DNA of 37,239 nucleotides from Dehalococcoidia bacterium (lineage in GTDB: Bacteria; Chloroflexota; Dehalococcoidia; Tepidiformales; Tepidiformaceae), in assembly GCA_009839725.1 (NCBI GenBank), contig VXPF01000024.1, positions 1 through 37,239 on the forward strand, given 5' to 3'. The translations under genes were made by a program, and so were the position numbers. Of this stretch, positions 3,936 through 32,127 are shown in pieces. Positions within the stretch are counted from its first letter, which is position 1. Each line of letters starts with the position of its first letter. The notes below the pieces were generated by a model. It ran no database searches and was not told where the DNA came from. It saw only the letters and a program-made list of their open reading frames with translations.

Positions 3936-6062
3936 CTACGCCAGCAGGTGCTCCTCGAAGTACGACAGCAGCCGGCGCTCCATGTACTCCAGACCCGCCG
4001 CATCGCGGGGCATGTGCCGCTCCTCCGGGAAGATCTGGATGTCGTACGGCTTCTGCGCCGCCGTCAGCGCCGTGATCAGCCGCGCCGTGTGCCGGAAGTG
4101 CACGTTCTCATCGACCATTCCGTGGACCAGCAAGAGCTTCCCCGCTAGCCCCTCCACATGCGTCGTCACCGCCCCTTCCCGGTACCCCTCCGCGTTGTCC
4201 TGCGGTGTCGACATGTAGCGCTCGGTGTAGCCCGTGTCGTAGCCGTCCCAGTCGACCACCGGCGCGCCCGATACCCCCACGTGGAAGACCTCGGGGGCGC
4301 GCATCAGGCACAGGCACGTCATGTAGCCGCCGTAGCTCCACCCGTAGATGCCGACCCGCTCGGAATCGGCCAGCCCTTCCGCCACGAGCTGCTCGACCGC
4401 CGCCACCTGGTCGTCGACCTCGACCGTGCCCATGCGCCGGTGCAGGTGCGCCTCGAACGCGAGCCCCCGGTTGGCGCTCCCCCGATTATCGACCGCGAGC
4501 ACGGCGAAGCCCGCCTGCGCGAGGTACTGCGCCCGCAGGTCCACCGTCAGCGCCCAGTCGTCGAGGACGCGCTGTGCGTGCGGACCCCCGTACACCGACA
4601 CCACCAGCGGGTGCGGGCCCTCCCCTTCGGGCCGGTACAGCGCCCCGAACATGGGTGTTCCGTCCGCAGCCGCCATCACGCGCAGCTCGGGCGCCCGCAG
4701 CCCCTGCCCGGTCGCCGTCATCTCCGGCTCCTCGAACAGCGTCGCCAACACATTGCCGCCATCCGTGCGGCGCAGCGTCGTCACCGCGGCGTGCTCCCGC
4801 GACGAGAAGGTGTCGACGAACGTCGCCCCGTCCGGCGAGACCGCGCAGCCGTGCACGCCCGGCTCGCTCGTCAGGCGCTCGACCTCCCCGCCGTCCAGCC
4901 CCACCCGATACAGGTGCCGCTCCACCGCCCCCTCCCGCGTCCCGCTGAAGAACACCGTCCGCCTTTCCTCGTCCACCTCCACGATGCGCGTCACGACCCA
5001 CTCCCCCGAGGTCAGGCGGCGCGACTCGTTGAGGTCTCGGTCGTACAGCTCGAGATGCCGGAAGCCCGTCCGCTCGCTCGACCACAGCAGCTCGCCCGTC
5101 TCGAGGAAGCGGAAGTCGCCCAGGTTCAGCCACGGCTCGCTGCGCTGGACGAGCGTTCGCGCTACCGCTCCGGTTTCCGCATCGAACAGGTGCAGGCGCA
5201 GCTCCGTCTGGGCGCGATTCAGCACCACGCCCGCGAGCATCCCATCCGGTCGCCAGACGACCCGCGGCAGGTAGATGTCGTCCTCGTCCCCGAGGTCCAT
5301 CCAGACCGGCTCACCGCCGTCCGCCGCGACCACCCCCAGCCGCACGCGCGCGTTCGGCGCTCCCGCGAACGGGTAGCGGTGGTGCTCGGTGTCGAGCGCG
5401 TCCTGCCCCTGGTGGACGATCGGGTAGTCGGGGATGTGTCGGGCGTCGACCTCCACGAAGGCGATGTGCGACCGGTCCGGCGACCACCAGAACCCGTCGG
5501 ACTGCCCGAACTCCTCTTGCGCGATGAAGTCCGCCAGCCCGTTCGTGAACCCGTCCTCGGCCCCGCTCGTGAGCTGCTGCGCTTCTCCTCCACCGGCCGG
5601 CATCGCGAACAATTCGCCGCCCCGCACGAACGCGAGCCGGGAGCCGTCCTGCGTCAGCCGCGGCGTGATCGCCCCCTCCGCCCCCTCGATCGCCATCGGC
5701 TCCCCGTCGCCCACGATGACCCTCGGACCCTCGCCCCCGGGCAGCAGGATGGTGCGTTCTTCTGCCTTGGGTGCGAAGCGGTAGTCCGTGACGCCCACGT
5801 CGCGCAGGCGCGCGCGTTCCCGGCGCAGCTCCTCCTCCCGCGAGATCGGCCCGCCCCCGCCCGCCGGCCCGGCCAGCGCCCGCCGTTTCCCCGTCGCGAC
5901 GTCGTATAGCCAGAGGCTGCGCACGAGGCCGCCGTCCTCGCTCGCGAGGTAGGTGATGCCGCTCCCGTCGGGCGTAAAGGACCAGCGCGCCGGCCCGCCC
6001 ATCCCCGGCCGCGGGTAGCGCGCCACCTGCTCGATGGAGACTCGCTCGTAGGGAGCCGTCAC
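3936..6062 (-). CDS. S9 family prolyl dipeptidyl peptidase, DPP-IV-like
   Basis: This 708-residue serine peptidase has an N-terminal beta-propeller (about residues 1-450) and a C-terminal alpha/beta-hydrolase domain. The catalytic triad is visible as Ser576 in GWSYGGY, Asp651 in VHGMVDENV and His683 in EERHMP. The segment [19 protein letters not shown] matches the double-Glu motif by which DPP-IV enzymes hold the substrate amino terminus, so removal of X-Pro dipeptides is the best prediction. No signal peptide is seen, so it is probably cytoplasmic. The start is GTG at 6062-6060, which overlaps the TGA of the upstream aminopeptidase P gene by four bases and implies translational coupling. Confidence 0.92.
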
Positions 6063-7456
6063 GCTCGCAGGCCCTCTGCGCGAAGCGCCTCGATCGCGTC
6101 GAGCGCCTTCGGCGTCGCCGCCGACAGCACCTCCGCCCCCTCCTCGGTCACGAGCACATCGTCCTCGATGCGGATGCCGCCGAAGTCCAGCATCCCGTCG
6201 ACCCGCTCCCAGGCCACATCGTCGCGGTACCGCTCCCGCAGATCGGGATCCTCCAACAACGCGCGGATGAAGTAGATGCCCGGCTCGATCGTGACCACGT
6301 ACCCGGGCTGCAGGGGCAGGTCCGCTCGCAGGTAGCGGAGCGTCGGCCGGTCGCTCGGCGCCCGTCCTTCGAGGCAGCCTCCCGCGTCGTGCGTCGCCAG
6401 CCCCAGCATGTGCCCGAGCCCGTGCGGGAAGAACAACGCCTGCGCGTCCCGCTCCACCAGTGCCTCCGCATCCCCCCGCAGCAGCCCCAGGTCGACCAGC
6501 CCCCGTGCGGTCTCGACGCTCGCCGCGAGGTGCAGGTCCATGTACTCGACCCCCGGCCTCACCCCGGCGATGGCGTTTTCCTGCACGCCAAGCACGAGCG
6601 AATACAGGTCGCGCTGGATGCCCTCGAACCGTGCCCCTAACGGGTACGTGCGCGTCACGTCGCTCGCGTAGCCCCCCACTTCCGCCCCAGCATCGACCAG
6701 GACCAGCTCGCCCTCGCCGAATTCCCGTGCGGTGGGCTCGAAGTGCAGGATGGCCGCGTTCGGCCCGCCCCCGACGATCGACCCGTACGCCGTCCGTTCC
6801 GCTCCCGCCCGGAAAAACTCGACCTCGATCTCGATCTGGAGCGCCCGCTCCGACATGCCCGCCCGCGCCTTCCGTATTCCCGCCATGTGCCCGGGATGCG
6901 TCGCCGCCGCCGCTTCACGCATCAGCGCCAGCTCGCCCGGATCCTTCGCCCGCCGCAGCTCCGCGACGACGGTGCGTAGCCGCTCGTTCTCCTCGTCGTC
7001 CGTCGCGAACTCGAGGCTGGCCCACGACTCCACCCCGTACTCGGCGGCCCGCAGCGTGAGGTCGTCGTTCCCGATGATCGCGACCGGCTCCCCTCGCCGC
7101 CGCTCCAGCCACTGCCCCAGCTCCGTTGTGGGTCGTACCCGCTCCAACCCCGATGCCTCCGCCACCGCGGCCAGCGAGGGGCCGTCGCCGGTCCAGACCC
7201 GCTCCGCCGCCTCGGGCTGCGGCACGAACAGGGTCCAGCCCTCGCCCGCGTCGAACGCGAGCACGCCGCCCGGCTGCCCCACGCCCGCCAAGTAGCGATG
7301 CTCCGGGTGCGCGTGGTACTCGTGGAACTGGTCCGTCCCCGCGATCGGCAGCATGAGCCCCGCCGGTACGAGCACGACCCCCCGGTCGAGATTCCAGCGT
7401 GCCACCGCTCGTTGGCGCCGCTCCGCGACGAGCTGCGCCGCTTCGTTCCCTGCCAT
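6059..7456 (-). CDS. pepP: Xaa-Pro aminopeptidase (aminopeptidase P, M24B)
   Basis: This 465-residue metallopeptidase should release an N-terminal residue ahead of proline. An AMP_N-type domain (about 1-160) precedes the pita-bread catalytic domain. The five metal ligands fit VDAGAEVGGYASDVTRTYP (two Asp), the His in HGLGHMLGLATHD, the Glu in TIEPGIYF and the Glu in GGIRIEDDVLV. The ATG at 7456 is selected because a TACACT box ends exactly six bases upstream and no Shine-Dalgarno is present, as expected for a leaderless message; an ATG ten codons further upstream would lie before the -10 box. The gene runs into the DPP-IV-like gene with a four-base overlap, giving a two-gene proline-peptide degradation unit. 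Confidence 0.93.
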   Translation of the reverse strand: MAGNEAAQLVAERRQRAVARWNLDRGVVLVPAGLMLPIAGTDQFHEYHAHPEHRYLAGVGQPGGVLAFDAGEGWTLFVPQPEAAERVWTGDGPSLAAVAEASGLERVRPTTELGQWLERRRGEPVAIIGNDDLTLRAAEYGVESWASLEFATDDEENERLRTVVAELRRAKDPGELALMREAAAATHPGHMAGIRKARAGMSERALQIEIEVEFFRAGAERTAYGSIVGGGPNAAILHFEPTAREFGEGELVLVDAGAEVGGYASDVTRTYPLGARFEGIQRDLYSLVLGVQENAIAGVRPGVEYMDLHLAASVETARGLVDLGLLRGDAEALVERDAQALFFPHGLGHMLGLATHDAGGCLEGRAPSDRPTLRYLRADLPLQPGYVVTIEPGIYFIRALLEDPDLRERYRDDVAWERVDGMLDFGGIRIEDDVLVTEEGAEVLSAATPKALDAIEALRAEGLRA

Positions 7457-8638: not shown

Positions 8639-9148
8639 ATGCCCCTGACCGAGTTCGGGCCCGTCCAGCACCTCTCCGCCGATGCGGTGGGCCAGCCGGG
8701 ACAGCGCCGCTTTCGTCTGCGCGCCATCAGCCAGGGCGGCACCTACGCCTTCGTCTGGATGGAGAAAGAGCAGCTCGCCGCCATCGGTGAGGCGATCGAG
8801 ACCACCCTCGAACACGCCGAGGTCGACCTTGACCCCTTCGGGCCCGGGGAGCCCGAACCCGTCTTCCCCCTCGAGGCCAATCTCGACCTGGACGTCCGCG
8901 CCGGCCGCCTCTCGCTCGGCCTGAACGAAGAGACCCGCCGCATCGTCATCGTGGGCGCCGAGGCTCCGACCGAGACCGAGGGAGAGGCTGTCTCCCTCGA
9001 GTTCGACTTCGACACCGCCCGCCGCCTTCGCGCGCAGATCAACGAGGTCGTGGCGGCGGGCCGGCCACCCTGCCAGTTCTGCGGCGCCCCCGTCGACCCC
9101 GAGGGGCATGTCTGCCCCCGTTCCAACGGCCACAACCCCGAGGAGTAG
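8639..9148 (+). CDS. DUF3090 family protein
   Basis: This 169-residue protein matches DUF3090, a family I know from Actinobacteria and Chloroflexi and whose function is unestablished. It opens with LTEFGPVQHLSADAVG and continues with a beta-rich body (FRLRAISQGGTYAFVWMEK). It ends in a zinc-ribbon-like tail with Cys145, Cys148, Cys159 and His165 (CQFC and HVCPRSNGH). In actinobacteria, members often sit next to a histidine-phosphatase gene; here the only histidine phosphatase is about 12 kb away at 21407. The ATG at 8639 is chosen from the family N-terminus. Confidence 0.85.
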   Translation: MPLTEFGPVQHLSADAVGQPGQRRFRLRAISQGGTYAFVWMEKEQLAAIGEAIETTLEHAEVDLDPFGPGEPEPVFPLEANLDLDVRAGRLSLGLNEETRRIVIVGAEAPTETEGEAVSLEFDFDTARRLRAQINEVVAAGRPPCQFCGAPVDPEGHVCPRSNGHNPEE

Positions 9149-15082: not shown

Positions 15083-16222
15083 ATGCCTCCACGACCCTTC
15101 CGTATCGACGTCCCCGACTCCGTCCTCGACGACCTCCGCGACCGCCTTGACCGCACCCGCTGGCCCGACGCCATTCCGGACACCGGCTGGGACTACGGCG
15201 CGGACGTCGCCTACGTCCGCGAGCTCTGCGACTACTGGCGCGACGAGTACGACTGGCGCGCACAGGAGGCCGCGCTGAACGCCTGGCCCCAGTTCCTCTG
15301 CGAGGTCGACGGCGTCGATATCCACTACTGGCACGTCCGCGGCCAGGGCCCCGATCCCCACCCCCTCCTCCTGACGCATGGCTGGCCGGGCTCGATGTTC
15401 GAGTTCCTCCACCTCATCGGGCCCCTCACCGACCCCGCCGCCCACGGTGGTGACCCCGCCGACGCCTTCGACGTCGTCATCCCCTCCATCCCCGGCTTCG
15501 GCTGGAGCGGCAAGCCCGCCGAGCGCGGCTGGGGCCCCTCCCGCATCGCCGCCGCCCTCGACCACCTCATGACCGCCGAGCTCGGCTACGAGCGCTACGG
15601 CGCCCAGGGCGGCGACTGGGGCGCCATCATCAGCACCCGCCTGGGCGCCGCCCACGCCGGCAATCTGAGCGGCATCCACCTCAACATGGCCCTCGCCGGG
15701 CCACCCGACCCGCCCACAGAGGCGGACGAGGCCGGACTTGCGTCGCGACGCGCCTTCCAGGCCCGGGAAACCGGCTACAGCAACGTCCAGAGCACCAAGC
15801 CCCAGTCCCTCGGCATCGCCCAGGCCGACTCGCCCGCCGGCATCGCCGCCTGGATCACGGAGAAGTTCCGCACCTGGAGCGACTGCAACGGCGATGTCGA
15901 GTCGCGCTACTCGAAGGACACGCTGCTCACCAACATCATGTTCTACTGGGCGCCGAACAGCATCGCGTCGGCGGCTCGCATCTACTACGAGGCCCGCGCC
16001 GAGGGCGTCGGCGGCCGCGTTCCCCCGGTCGAGCGCATCGCCGTCCCGACCGGCTTCGCCGCCTTCCCCGGCGAGATCATCCAGGCTCCCCGCCACTGGG
16101 TCGAAGCTGCCTACAACCTCGTGCACTACACGGAGATGCCTGCCGGGGGCCACTTCGCCGCCCTCGAGGAGCCCGACCACCTCCTCCGCGACATCCGCGC
16201 CTTCTTCCGGCAGGTGCGCTGA
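15083..16222 (+). CDS. Microsomal-type epoxide hydrolase (EHN domain)
   Basis: This 379-residue protein has an N-terminal EHN domain ([24 protein letters not shown]) and an alpha/beta-hydrolase body. Catalytic residues are Asp178 in GAQGGDWGA, Glu331 in FAAFPGEI and His357 in [11 protein letters not shown], the Asp/Glu/His set of microsomal epoxide hydrolases. HGWPGS at 99-104 is the oxyanion loop. It should open epoxides to diols; the substrate is unknown. Unlike mammalian enzymes, no N-terminal membrane anchor is seen. It is a different family from the epoxide hydrolase at 9161-10132. Confidence 0.92.
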
Positions 16223-16335: not shown

Positions 16336-17982
16336 ATGCCCAGCCAATCGAAAGAAGAGTGGCTCGAAGGTACGTACCGCAAGGCGGTCGAGCGCAACCC
16401 CGAGCGCGCCGAGTCGTTCCGCACGACCGGCGAGACCGTCCTCGACCCCGTCTACACGCCCGAGGACGCACCCGCTAACGGCGACCTCGGCTTCCCCGGC
16501 GAGTACCCCTTTACCCGTGGCGTCCAGCCCACCATGTACCGCGGGCGCCTCTGGACGATGCGCCAGTACGCCGGCTTCGGCACCGCCGAGGAGTCAAACG
16601 AGCGCTACCGTTATCTCCTCGACCAGGGCCAGACCGGCCTCTCCGTCGCCTTCGACCTCCCCACCCAGATCGGCTACGACTCCGATGACTCGATGGCCAT
16701 GGGCGAGGTCGGCAAGGTCGGTGTCGCCATCGACTCGATCGATGACATGCGAACGCTGTTCCAGGAGATCCCCCTCGACCGCGTCACTACCTCCATGACC
16801 ATCAACGGCACCGCCGCCGTCCTCCTCGGCCTCTACATCGCCGTGGGCAAGGAGCAGGGCGTACCCCTCGACAAGCTCGGCGGCACCGTCCAGAACGACA
16901 TCCTCAAGGAGTACATCACCCGCGGGACGTGGATCTATCCGCCCACGCCCAGCATGCGGCTCATCACCGACGTCTTTCAGTTCTGCTCCGAGAACGTGCC
17001 CCGCTGGAACACCATCTCCATCTCCGGGTACCACATGCGCGAGGCGGGCTGCACCGCCGCCCAGGAGATCGCCTTCACCCTCGCCAACGGCATCGCCTAC
17101 GTCGATGCCGCTGTCTCCGCCGGCCTCGATGTCGACGCCTTTGCGGGGCGGCTCAGCTTCTTCTTCGCCTGCCACAACAACCTGCTGGAGGAGGTGTGCA
17201 AGTTCCGCGCCGCGCGCCGCCTCTGGGCCACGATCATGAAGGAGCGCTTCGAGGCCAAGAGCCCGCGCTCGATGATGATGCGCTTCCACACCCAGACCGG
17301 CGGCGCCACCCTTACCGCCCAGCAGCCCGAGAACAACATCGTGCGCACCACCCTCCAGGCTCTCGCTGCCGTCCTCGGCGGGACCCAGTCGCTCCACACG
17401 AACTCGATGGACGAAGCCCTCTCACTTCCCACCGAGAAGGCCGTCCAGATCGCCCTCCGCACGCAGCAGGTCATCGGCTTCGAGAGCGGCGCCGGCGATG
17501 TCATCGACCCCCTCGGTGGCTCCTGGTACATCGAATCCATGACCGACCGCCTCGAGGCCGAGGCGCGCGACTACCTCAAGACGATCGAGGACCTCGGCGG
17601 CGCTCCCGCCGCCCTCGAACAGGGCTTCCAGCAGCGCGAGATCCAGGAGGCCTCCTACCGCTACCAGCGCGAGATCGAGGACAAGGACCGCATCATCGTC
17701 GGCGTCAACGACTTCACCGTCAGCGGCGAGGAGCCCCCCGAGCTCCTGCGCGTCGACCCTTCCATTGGCCGGCGCCAGGTGGAGCGCCTGCAGGCCCTCC
17801 GCGCCCAGCGCGACAACGCCGCTGCGGACGCCGCCATCGCCTCCCTCGAGGAGGGCGCCCGCGGCACCGACAACCTCGTCCCGCTCATCGTCGCCGCCGT
17901 CGAGGCGCGCGCCACGCTCGGCGAGATCAGCCACGCCCTGCGCCGCGCCTGGGGCGAGTACCGCGAGATCGTGGTCGTCTGA
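16336..17982 (+). CDS. mcmA1: Methylmalonyl-CoA mutase, catalytic (large) subunit lacking the B12 domain
   Basis: This 548-residue TIM-barrel half of an adenosylcobalamin mutase interconverts (R)-methylmalonyl-CoA and succinyl-CoA. Diagnostic residues are Tyr68 in [17 protein letters not shown], Arg196 in [13 protein letters not shown] and the Tyr232-His233 pair in SGYHMREAG. They match the Tyr89/Arg207/Tyr243/His244 set of methylmalonyl-CoA mutase rather than the Phe/Gln variant of isobutyryl-CoA mutase. The B12-binding domain is a separate gene at 19358, so the enzyme must assemble from two subunits. It opens the operon, and its TGA overlaps the next ATG by one base. Confidence 0.95.
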
Positions 17983-18500
17983 TGCCCGAGGACGACACCC
18001 GTAGCTTCGTGGACGACCGCCGCCGCCTGCTCGGCGAGCTGGAGCTGGAGCGCAATCAGCTCCTGCGCAACATCGAGACCTGCCGTATCCGTGACATCGA
18101 GCGCCCCATGATCGACGAGTGGTCCCTCAAGGACATCATCGGCCACGTCGCCAGCTGGGAGGCCGAGGTCGTTAGCGCCCTGCTCGACATCCAGGAGGGC
18201 CGCCGTCCCGCCATCCTCGACTTCGACGAGACGCGCACCGACGCCTGGAACCAGGACCACGTCGAGCGCAAGCGCAGCCTCACCTTCTGGAGCGTCCTCG
18301 AACAGCTCAAGGCGGGTCGCGAGCGCCTGCTCGCCACCGCCGCCGAGTTCGACGACGCCGCCATCGGCGAGGAAGGCCGCGTCCCCAACCAGCTCCTGCA
18401 GGTGGTCGCCAACCACGACAGGGAACACTGGCACATCATCGCCGCCTACCTCGCCGGCATGCCAGGTGTGCGCGAAGCCAGCGCCGCCGGAACCAGCTAG
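17982..18500 (+). CDS. DinB-like four-helix metal-binding protein within the mutase operon
   Basis: This 172-residue protein fits the DinB/YfiT-like four-helix fold. The likely metal triad is His55 (IIGHVASWE), His145 and His149 (NHDREHWH), spaced as expected for the fold. Members are often thiol-dependent transferases using bacillithiol, mycothiol or glutathione, but the activity here is unknown. The ATG overlaps the mutase stop codon (TGATG), so translation is coupled. Nothing I know of the methylmalonyl-CoA pathway requires such a protein, which makes its place between mutase and epimerase notable. Confidence 0.85.
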   Translation: MPEDDTRSFVDDRRRLLGELELERNQLLRNIETCRIRDIERPMIDEWSLKDIIGHVASWEAEVVSALLDIQEGRRPAILDFDETRTDAWNQDHVERKRSLTFWSVLEQLKAGRERLLATAAEFDDAAIGEEGRVPNQLLQVVANHDREHWHIIAAYLAGMPGVREASAAGTS

Positions 18501-18516
18501 CACTCAGAGGAGCCTC

Positions 18517-19332
18517 ATGCTCAGCAAGGTCCACCACGTTGGCATCGTCGTCCGCAGCGCCGACGACGCGCTTGGCTTTTACCGAGACGCCCTCGGCCTC
18601 CCCGTCAGCGTCGACCGCGTTATCGAGGACCAGGGGGTCCGCGGCGTCCTCCTCCCCTGCGGCACCGCCGAGATCGAGCTGCTCGAACCGACGCGCGACG
18701 ATACCGGCGTAGCGCGCTTCCTTCAGGGGCGCGGCGAGGGCATGCACCACGTCTGCTTCGAGTCCGACGACTGCGGGGCCGACCTGCGCGCGGCCGCCGA
18801 GGTGGGCGTCCAGCTCATCGACGAAGCGCCCCGCGCCGGGCTCGCCGGCATGATCGGCTTCCTCCACCCGAAGTCGAACCACGGCGTCCTCGTCGAGTAC
18901 GCGACCCCTGTCGAGGAAGCCCACGTCGGCCCCAGCGACGATGCCACGGCGAACCGTATCGACCACATCGGCATCGTCGTGCAGGACATCCCCACCGCCG
19001 CCGCCACCTACGAGCGCCACTTCGGCTTCAGCCTCGACCCCGAGCTCGGCGGCCAGAACGAGGCCCTCGGCATCGAAAACGCCTTCATGCTCGCCGGCAA
19101 CGCCCACCTCGAGTTCATCCGGCCCACGACAGAAGAAGGGCCCGTCGCGAAGTTCGCCTCCGAGCGGGGCGAGGGCTCGTTCCTCCTCTCGCTCGCCGTA
19201 TCCGACGTCCAGGCCGCCGTCGACTCGCTCCGCGCCTCCGGCGCGCGCGCAGGCGACCCCAACGGCCCGGTCGCTTTCGTTTCGCCCCGCTCGTCCTTCG
19301 GCGTCAACCTGCAGTTGGTCGAGCGATCCTGA
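18517..19332 (+). CDS. mce: Methylmalonyl-CoA epimerase-like protein with two VOC domains
   Basis: This 271-residue protein has two glyoxalase/VOC domains. The first (about 1-130) has the features of methylmalonyl-CoA epimerase: VHHVGIVV with His7, [15 protein letters not shown] with His78 and VLVEYA with Glu127 as metal ligands. The second (about 147-270) repeats the fold ([11 protein letters not shown]), but the second His position is Leu223 (GSFLLSLAV) and the Glu position is Gln266, so its metal site seems lost. Usual epimerases have only about 130-150 residues. Its position between the two mutase subunit genes supports the epimerase role. The ATG follows AGAGGAG. Confidence 0.85.
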
Positions 19333-19357
19333 CCCCACGACACACAGGAGCAGCATC

Positions 19358-19776
19358 ATGACCGCATCTCCCGAAACAACCGCCGGACAGAAGATCCGGG
19401 TCCTCATCGCCAAGCCTGGCCTCGATGGCCACGACCGCGGCGCCAAGATCGTCGCGCGGGCCCTGCGCGACGGAGGCTGCGAGGTCATCTACACCGGCAT
19501 CCGCCAGACGCCCCAGATGATCGCCGAGGCCGCCCTCCAGGAAGACGTTGATGTCGTCGGCCTCAGCATCCTCTCCGGCGCCCACCTTGAGCTCTTCCCC
19601 CGCATCGTCGAAGAGCTCAGGTCTCGCGGCCTCGACGATGTCCTCCTCTTCTGCGGCGGCATCATTCCCGAGGAGGACACGGACGCCCTCGAGGCGATGG
19701 GCTTCAGCGCCATCTTCCGTCCCGGCACCAACACCCGGGACATCGTGTCGTTCGTGTACGACAACGCCTCATCCGA

Positions 19777-19780
<4 letters not shown>
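19358..19780 (+). CDS. mcmA2: Cobalamin-binding small subunit of methylmalonyl-CoA mutase
   Basis: This 140-residue protein is the Rossmann-like B12 domain. It carries the base-off/His-on signature LDGHDRG, with His25 as the axial cobalt ligand, plus LSILSGAH and the glycine-rich [10 protein letters not shown] that line the nucleotide tail. It completes the mutase encoded at 16336. The ATG follows CAGGAG. Its TGA overlaps the GTG of meaB by four bases. Confidence 0.95.
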
Positions 19781-20711
<931 letters not shown>

Positions 20712-20715
<4 letters not shown>

Positions 20716-22064: not shown

Positions 22065-22406
22065 ATGCCTATCCCGGTGTTCACTAAGACCACCCTGTTT
22101 TTCCTGGTCTGCCTGCTCCTTACTGGCTACTTCGTGTACACCGCCTCCTCCGGGACCGTCCGTCAGCGCCAGCAGAATGAGGACCACGAGGCCGCCCTCG
22201 CCGAGATCGAGGACCTCCGCTCCAGGCGCGATCATCTCCTCGCCGTTTACGACTACGTCGTCTCCGACGCCTACGTCGAGCAGGCGGCGCGGCGCGAGCT
22301 CGGCTACACCCGGCCGGGCGAGACCGCCTTCATCGTGTTGAGTCCCCCGCCGCACTCGGATGAGCAGGTGTCCGGCGAGTGGTGGGAACGCCTCTTCCCC
22401 AAGTAG
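22065..22406 (+). CDS. FtsB/DivIC-like septum formation initiator protein
   Basis: This 113-residue single-pass membrane protein has a short cytoplasmic start, a membrane helix at about 9-27 and a coiled-coil stretch at about 33-65 rich in Gln, Glu and Arg. The family motif DAYVEQAARRELGYTRPGETAFIV is represented by YVEQAARRELGYTRPGE. It would act in the divisome outside the membrane with FtsL/FtsQ-type partners. The small size and layout are typical. The next gene, tilS, begins at its stop codon. Confidence 0.88.
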   Translation: MPIPVFTKTTLFFLVCLLLTGYFVYTASSGTVRQRQQNEDHEAALAEIEDLRSRRDHLLAVYDYVVSDAYVEQAARRELGYTRPGETAFIVLSPPPHSDEQVSGEWWERLFPK

Positions 22407-26259: not shown

Positions 26260-28349
<2,090 letters not shown>

Positions 28350-28353
<4 letters not shown>

Positions 28354-31031: not shown

Positions 31032-31406
31032 CTACTCTCCCTCCATCGAGAGGTCGCGCTCGACCTCCCCCCGCGCCAGCTCCCCCAGCCGCTCCGGCAA
31101 CTCCCGCGCCCCAAACCGCCACGCCACCGCTTCCTCGAAAACCTCCGCCGTCTCGTTCGGCACGCCCCCCTCGCTCGCGAGGATCCACGCGCCTGCCAGC
31201 AGCCGCAGGTGGTACGCCGCCGCCCCCCGGTACAGCTTCGAGTCCGTCGCCTCCGCCTCCGCTGGCAGCTCCCCGGTAACGCGCTCCGCCAGCGCCTCCG
31301 CCGGCCCCGCCACCAGCGGGTCCGCGTCTACCGTCCGCCCGAAGGAGGTCATCAGCTTTCCGTAGTTCTCCTCGGTAATCAGCGGCCGCCGCCGGAAGAG
31401 TCGCAT
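31032..31406 (-). CDS. Uncharacterised small protein
   Basis: This 124-residue protein begins MRLFRRRPLITEENYGKLM and is mostly helical by appearance, with an acidic C-terminus (LARGEVERDLSMEGE). I do not recognise the family. No membrane segment, cysteine pair or catalytic motif is visible. The ATG at 31406 is supported by a minus-strand TATGAT box exactly six bases upstream and no Shine-Dalgarno. It converges with the ASCH-like gene (3-base gap) and diverges from mobA across only 40 bases. Confidence 0.7.
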   Translation of the reverse strand: MRLFRRRPLITEENYGKLMTSFGRTVDADPLVAGPAEALAERVTGELPAEAEATDSKLYRGAAAYHLRLLAGAWILASEGGVPNETAEVFEEAVAWRFGARELPERLGELARGEVERDLSMEGE

Positions 31407-31446
31407 CGCGCCATCATAGCGAGCCCCGCTCGCGTACCCTGAGCGC
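31407..31446. promoter_or_regulatory. Compact back-to-back leaderless promoter pair
   Basis: In only 40 bases between two divergent ATGs, a minus-strand TATGAT (31418-31413) and a plus-strand TACCCT (31435-31440) each end exactly six bases before their start codon. Neither gene has a Shine-Dalgarno. The two -10 boxes are 16 bases apart, so polymerases probably cannot occupy both at once. Confidence 0.6.
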
Positions 31447-32127
31447 ATGCCCGAAGGCGTCACCGGCATCATCGTGGCGGGCGGCCTGAGTCGGCGCTTC
31501 GGCTCCGACAAGGCCTCCGCCAGCCTGCGCGGGCGCCCCCTCCTCCAGTGGGTGCGGGACGCCCTCGCCCCGGTCGTCGACGAGATGGTGGTCGTCACCG
31601 CCGCCGGCCAGACGCTGCCCCCCATGCACCCCGCCATGCCCGTCATCGTGGTCGAGGACCGCGAACCCGAGCGCGGGCCCCTCGCCGGTCTCGTGGCCGG
31701 CTTCACCGCGGCGGCCTCACCCGTCTGCTTCGCGGCTTCCTGCGACGCCCCCCTCCTGCGGACGGCAGTCGTCGAGCGCGTGACTGGCGGCCTCGGGAGC
31801 CACGATGCCATCCTCCCCGAGGTGGGTGGTTTCCAGCAGCCCCTCGCGGCCGCCTATCGCCGCGAGCCGTGCCTGGCGGCCGCCGAGGCCTCCCTCGCGG
31901 CGGGCGGCAACAAGGTCATCGAAGCCTTCGCCGAGCTCGATGTCCTCGCCCTCGCCGAGGACCGGCTGGCGCGAGTCGACCCGGACCTCCGCAGCTTCCG
32001 CAACGCGAACACGCCCGACGAGCTGGCCGCCATCGCCACTCTCCTGGACGCACCTGCGCCTTCAGCCCCAACCCAGCCTCGCCGCAAGCGGAGCCGGCCC
32101 CGCGGCAAGAGCCGCCGCCGCCACTAA
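31447..32127 (+). CDS. mobA: Molybdenum cofactor guanylyltransferase-like protein
   Basis: This 226-residue nucleotidyltransferase has IIVAGGLSRRFGSDKA at the N-terminus and CDAPLL (Asp100) for metal binding, as in MobA, which links GMP to molybdopterin. The order GIIVAGGLSRRFGSDK with FRNANTPDEL near the end fits MobA better than IspD or MocA. A basic tail of about 17 residues (210-226, e.g. RRKRSRPRGKSRRRH) is unusual. The Mo protein at 7566 is of the sulfite-oxidase class, which does not normally need the guanylyl form, so MobA probably serves enzymes outside this window. Confidence 0.85.
   Translation: MPEGVTGIIVAGGLSRRFGSDKASASLRGRPLLQWVRDALAPVVDEMVVVTAAGQTLPPMHPAMPVIVVEDREPERGPLAGLVAGFTAAASPVCFAASCDAPLLRTAVVERVTGGLGSHDAILPEVGGFQQPLAAAYRREPCLAAAEASLAAGGNKVIEAFAELDVLALAEDRLARVDPDLRSFRNANTPDELAAIATLLDAPAPSAPTQPRRKRSRPRGKSRRRH

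Follow-up and report, generated by a model that had tools for sequence, protein, structure and literature searches.

The closest described counterparts of the genes considered here are the TA-led genes of Zheng et al. (2011; PMC3160421), which have a TANNNT hexamer about 12 bp before the start codon, carry little information in its middle three bases in their high-GC form, lack a Shine-Dalgarno sequence and occur alongside SD-led genes. According to the available part of that survey, TA-led genes average 19.2% in Actinobacteria and 39.4% in Deinococcus-Thermus, and were found in four of 12 Chloroflexi genomes at an average of 4.7% (4.0–5.7), with a TAtaaT form in medium-GC members of the phylum. 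The accessible text of PMC9581028 quotes GeneMarkS-2 figures for leaderless genes in Actinobacteria and Deinococcus. A literature search combining leaderless starts with Chloroflexota promoters and start codons gave no match, with subscription papers mostly outside its reach. The mechanism itself is known, and this lineage has previously hardly been described for leaderless starts.

Divergent promoters provide a further comparison. Bidirectional promoters are defined by divergent transcription starts 7–25 bp apart (Middlemiss et al. 2023, PMC10268837), and the word 'leaderless' does not occur in the text available from that paper. As far as that text describes them, they resemble the locus at 31404–31449 studied here in placing two divergent promoters in minimal space; at a second locus outside the window, cinA/phzF, the two putative -10 elements overlap. 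They differ in spacing: the inferred transcription starts of the P0002/mobA pair at our locus lie 41 bp apart, outside the 7–25 bp definition, which makes it two adjacent promoters.

The stretch of DNA that we analysed (the window, 37,239 nucleotides, 70% G+C) belongs to the 188,484-base contig 117 of a 2.83-Mb assembly in 160 contigs. We call this genome G000 and its eight congeners G028–G035, nine genus genomes in all. The initial annotation of the window had listed seven genes with TANNNT shortly before an ATG, and all seven layouts are present as described, with gaps of 6, 8, 6, 6, 8, 6 and 6 bases:

6059–7456, minus strand: M24 metallopeptidase (aminopeptidase P type); TACACT, gap 6; motif present in all 6 orthologues
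8639–9148, plus strand: DUF3090 gene; TAGGAT, gap 8, with AGGA in the hexamer; the same hexamer in all 6 orthologues
15083–16222, plus strand: epoxide hydrolase family gene; TATAGT, gap 6; motif present in 5 of the 6 orthologues
22065–22406, plus strand: DivIC-like septum formation initiator; TAATTT, gap 6; motif present in all 7 orthologues
26260–28353, plus strand: thioredoxin-domain (DUF255) protein; TACACT, gap 8; kept in 8 of 8 orthologues
31032–31406, minus strand (ATG at 31406–31404): P0002, 124 aa, function unassigned, predicted leaderless; TATGAT, gap 6; kept in 6 of 7 orthologues
31447–32127, plus strand: mobA-like gene (molybdenum cofactor guanylyltransferase family), predicted leaderless; TACCCT, gap 6

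Elsewhere in the window, a run of genes at 16336–20715 resembles, from reading the sequence, a methylmalonyl-CoA mutase set; we take it to comprise the large part of the mutase, an epimerase-like gene, the B12-binding part and a MeaB-like GTPase.

Start codons were called with a home-made gene finder that uses codon statistics and start-codon type only, with no promoter or Shine-Dalgarno term. It selected the identical seven starts. Seven of the 38 window genes with a usable start had TANNNT at a gap of 6–8, where 0.30 were expected from control positions (Poisson P = 3.4e-8). The hexamer is indeed rare in this DNA, as had been claimed (0.00092 per base per strand in a 602-kb sample), and the spacing is very unlikely to be due to chance. 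It is not fixed, however: gaps of 6 and 7 are the most frequent in the larger sample, with fewer genes at up to 9, and the gene at 26260, with a gap of 8 in the window, has 6 or 7 in its orthologues. The absence of a Shine-Dalgarno sequence from the seven starts held in general, except that the AGGA inside TAGGAT lies at a workable Shine-Dalgarno distance from 8639, which leaves that gene ambiguous from its own sequence.

The prediction that the hexamer would peak six to eight bases before starts across the genome was borne out. We sampled 960 kb of G000 (61 stretches, 68% G+C), giving 852 genes with usable computed starts. TANNNT lay at -12 (gap 6) in 39 of these genes and at -13 (gap 7) in 25, against a mean of 2.25 genes over 12 control positions, and the profile was far from flat. 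Within -15 to -12 the hexamer was present in 86 of the 852 genes, about nine of them by chance, corresponding to roughly 9% (about 9–10%) of genes. The carriers comprised 82 of 567 first-like genes and only four of 285 inner genes; that nearly all of them are first in their transcription unit counts for a leaderless-promoter reading. Over the whole of G000 there were 186 occurrences of TANNNT-6-ATG, 53 of TANNNT-12-ATG, which keeps the identical reading phase, and 87 of the reversed pattern. The -12/-13 peak recurred in samples of two other genomes, G027 (23/371) and G068 (23/204). The TANNNT/ATG observation is real.

Compared with the available figures of Zheng et al. (2011), the G000 form is the high-GC one, and its share of about 9–10% of sampled genes is about twice the 4.0–5.7% of the Chloroflexi genomes. 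The G000 genes share promoter position and mixed Shine-Dalgarno use with the leaderless genes of Actinobacteria and Deinococcus, as far as those are covered in the sources available, and their share is lower.

A Shine-Dalgarno tetramer was present in only three of the 64 genes with the motif at gap 6 or 7, compared with 399 of the 760 genes without the motif (Fisher P = 2.3e-15). Its absence is not specific, because the other 361 motif-free genes also lack the tetramer. The hexamer itself has the character of a -10 element. Hexamers without the final T (TANNN[ACG]) showed no excess at -12 (five, control mean 13.9), nor did those without the A (12 vs 12.2), while those lacking the first T showed some excess (32 vs 16.8, control maximum 27). 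The A and the last T are required, and the first T mostly, as at T-12, A-11 and T-7 of sigma-A -10 promoters. The fifth base prefers A or C in 73 G000 genes. No column upstream of the hexamer was informative in the same 73 genes, so that no sigma-A -35 element was found in them; the -35 element is dispensable in some promoters. In G068 there was some TG directly before the hexamer, and in G027 there were two weak columns.

The layout is conserved. Comparing stretches around mobA in the eight congeners, and excluding alignments that began after query residue 8 or had N upstream, we found that for the seven genes 46 of 48 orthologues have TANNNT 5–9 bases before a start, whereas for the other 31 window genes none of 195 do. 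The two exceptions are instructive and speak for the leaderless reading. The G028 orthologue of the 15083 gene has lost the motif and has GGAG upstream. G029 has an inserted gene of 219 aa, lacking any Pfam match, directly behind the minus-strand promoter of the P0002/mobA locus, with the same bases from the -10 element to the start codon. It lies at L098:801–1460 on the minus strand, between the promoter and the P0002 orthologue. The displaced orthologue overlaps the end of the inserted gene by ATGA and has GGAGG upstream. The predicted leaderless start has been taken over by the inserted gene.

The best example given by the initial annotation was the P0002/mobA locus, where two promoters were said to lie back to back within 40 bases. 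Both hexamers are there, but they lie on opposite strands, before divergent genes, and not in tandem:

31407–31446, both strands: whole intergenic region between the two start codons, 40 bp
31413–31418, minus strand: -10 element TATGAT of P0002, gap 6 to ATG
31419–31433, both strands: palindrome GCGAG-N5-CTCGC between the two -10 elements, a possible operator
31435–31440, plus strand: -10 element TACCCT of mobA, gap 6 to ATG

The -10 elements are 16 bases apart. The mobA-like product matched PF12804 (E = 3.4e-31), and TIGR02665 with E = 2.7e-27 at 96 bits, below the cut-off of 151.85; mobA is 78–85% identical in five named Chloroflexi or Dehalococcoidia metagenome assemblies. P0002 matched nothing in Pfam or NCBIfam. 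TACCCT with a gap of 6 was present in all nine genus genomes including G000, and TATGAT, alike in hexamer and geometry, in eight of the nine, G035 being the exception; the P0002 orthologue of G028 starts with GTG. The 40-bp region is 37–38/40 identical to the window in G029–G034, where fourfold sites are 0.62–0.74 identical, and 30/40 identical in G028, including all 12 hexamer bases, where fourfold sites are 0.28 identical. Its conservation exceeds that of fourfold sites in these seven congeners (P = 1.2e-9 to 5.8e-4), and is weaker once the two hexamers are removed (P = 8e-5 to 0.012). As single-stranded DNA a 46-base strand of the locus folds slightly better than shuffles (z = -2.3), but we give this no weight because neither inferred message contains that strand.

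We considered whether the hexamers might have another explanation. If TANNNT were the -10 element of ordinary leadered promoters near starts, transcription would begin further upstream and the chosen start codons would be wrong. The start codons are computed only, and a broad low rise of TANNNT from -40 to -24, up to 11 genes per position among the 852, shows that leadered promoters also exist. Further points count against leaderless starts: TAGGAT at 8639 is readable as a Shine-Dalgarno sequence, the motif-blind finder called the P0002 start although its frame is open further upstream (31032–31811), and double-leaderless pairs are not enriched. Loosely placed promoters cannot, however, yield a narrow two-position peak that falls to one gene at -11 (gap 5) and none at -10 (gap 4). 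In its frame, mobA has no possible start between the preceding stop codon and the ATG at 31447, and motif, gap and start codon are retained jointly in orthologues. We regard leadered promoters with wrongly chosen starts as improbable. A gene-calling artefact, in which an in-frame TAA or TAG at -12 forces the start to be placed just downstream, is more improbable still. Such stops were seen at -12 in 21 of the 852 genes, and in 10, 14, 11 and 10 at -9, -15, -18 and -21. The stop-free TA[CT]NNT shows the same peak, with 21 genes at -12 and 15 at -13, seven at each of -14 and -15 and 0–3 at most other positions, and we rejected the artefact on this ground. Position -13 is moreover out of frame, and a stop would not require the final T, without which there is no excess.

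A different alternative concerns only the 40-bp region, which may be conserved chiefly as an operator, the palindrome binding a repressor of both genes and the leaderless starts being incidental. The palindrome lies at the symmetry axis between the promoters, and its GCGAG and CTCGC arms are invariant around a variable centre in seven genomes (G000 and G029–G034). But it is broken in G028, which keeps both -10 elements and all spacings, and has no counterpart in G035, which keeps the -10 element of mobA alone, without that of P0002. Nor is the pattern rare: the 960-kb sample has 13 copies of GCGAG-N5-CTCGC, most of them intragenic, and no regulator was identified. We consider this alternative unlikely, although less so than the two above. 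As a genome-wide operator, the palindrome at 13 places in 960 kb was not convincing. At least one copy in G000 besides that of the mobA region, at L171:3816, lies in an upstream region.

The seven sites are very probably sigma-A-type -10 elements of leaderless messages, including two divergent, probably competing promoters at 31404–31449, and the finding is best read as the standard leaderless gene class. We infer leaderless messages from promoter position, the absence of Shine-Dalgarno sequences and conservation. RNA polymerase would begin transcription on the first base of the start codon or one to two bases ahead of it, and ribosomes that recognise a 5'-terminal start codon would translate these messages without Shine-Dalgarno pairing. 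At 31404–31449, two leaderless sigma-A-type promoters would face apart in 40 bp. Counting from the inferred starts, positions -35 to -30 before 31447 fall at 31412–31417, while the minus-strand -10 element occupies 31413–31418, and each inferred -35 place coincides within one base with the -10 element of the other gene. A polymerase bound at one promoter should therefore exclude the other, and expression of P0002 and mobA is probably mutually competitive.

A more compact arrangement is found at C158:142982–143009 of G000 (L202:4983–5010), between divergent genes for a CinA C-terminal-type amidohydrolase and a PhzF-family protein. There are 22 bases between the start codons (28 from CAT to ATG), and the -10 elements TAGCAT and TACGCT, on opposite strands, share their TA. 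Bidirectional promoters with near-symmetric -10 elements have reportedly been described by Warman et al. in 2021. The unit is present in eight of the nine genus genomes, with the core CGATGCTACGCT invariant there. In all eight, an in-frame stop at -12 leaves cinA no earlier start. The phzF start is not fixed in this way, as there is an in-frame ATG at -24 in all eight genomes and at -30 in seven, and the gene finder took the -30 ATG in five of the seven genomes where the gene was called. The PhzF family profile begins at residue 3 of the short form, which favours that form.

Ten of 38 family genomes have the exact mobA geometry, with 16 bp between the -10 elements, at one of three loci; the reversed control gave one genome. 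The loci are mobA in seven genomes, a unit in G002 with a 126-aa left frame and an FmdB-type zinc ribbon gene on the right, and one locus common to G036 and G037 with a peroxidase-related gene and an RsmE-type methyltransferase gene. A spacing of 17 bp was found in one family genome and 15 bp in none. With only three loci, we do not claim that a spacing of 16 bp is preferred. Double-leaderless pairs could not be upheld as an enriched class either: they make up three of 123 divergent pairs in G000, where 4.5 are expected under independence, one of 50 in G027 (0.84 expected) and two of 32 in G068 (2.0 expected).

Units with overlapping -10 elements gave 22 matches in 19 of 107 genomes of family f40, and two in the reversed control. 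We inspected 20 of these, all but those of G357 and G417. Only two loci, one common to L227 and L229 and the other at L239, had overlapping -10 elements flanked by good divergent frames, here in a Chloroflexota family other than that of G000; L238 is a doubtful case. Most of the remaining matches have a gene to one side alone, and the excess is therefore due mainly to single leaderless genes. Within f1, the family of G000, the overlapping matches in G015 (two) and G006, with G017 left out, had no good genes on both sides. At the mobA loci of genus g17 (L109, L110, L112, L114, L116 and L117) a TANNNT of the neighbouring gene, at gap 7, overlaps a weaker mobA hexamer, and at L110 there are about 22 bases between the starts. 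Only three of the six loci have a mobA hexamer that matches TANNNT, at gap 5, and for this reason mobA is no more than a candidate leaderless gene in g17.

It is conceivable, and we suggest it tentatively, that some divergent pairs in this lineage act as a single promoter-only unit with overlapping -10 elements on the two strands and two leaderless messages, where one polymerase footprint picks which protein is made. The cinA/phzF locus would be the type case, the 40-bp mobA region a relaxed form, and the unit a portable cassette open to an incoming gene, as in G029.

How far the signature extends in the lineage had been a guess of the initial annotation, and the answer is mixed. We counted TANNNT-6-ATG and TANNNT-12-ATG over 301 Chloroflexota genomes and took the ratio of gap 6 to gap 12. 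Ratios were tabulated for 103 of the genomes, all the members of 12 of the 81 families; these families were chosen, high and low, after the counts had been seen, and illustrate the spread and are not a random sample:

f1, 3.0 (3 genomes, including G000); f40, 3.4 (19); f28, 3.1 (7); f58, 2.5 (7)
f47, 3.8 (3 genomes); f16, 3.6 (1); f19, 2.3 (2); f25, 1.8 (8)
f38, 1.4 (16 genomes); f44, 1.1 (5); f2, 1.04 (11); f37, 1.01 (21)

In low-GC families a high background would hide a moderate excess.

With ratios of 1.01–3.8 between families, the signature is patchy, even inside one class, as f2 and f1 belong to the same class. Some Chloroflexota families show it strongly, while in others the gap-ratio count does not detect it.

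What is new here is the share of about 9–10% of genes, the patchiness across the phylum and the conserved double-leaderless divergent units; what is unusual is how compact and strongly conserved those divergent units are. In these uncultured genomes, roughly one gene in ten may be given a wrong start by gene finders that expect a Shine-Dalgarno sequence. The 301-genome count indicates that reliance on leaderless starts varies strongly between families of one phylum, opening its gain and loss to comparative study, and the G029 and G028 cases would be individual genes that changed from one type of start, leaderless or SD-led, to the other. Divergent leaderless pairs may offer a minimal setting for promoter competition, because there is no untranslated region to confuse the result.
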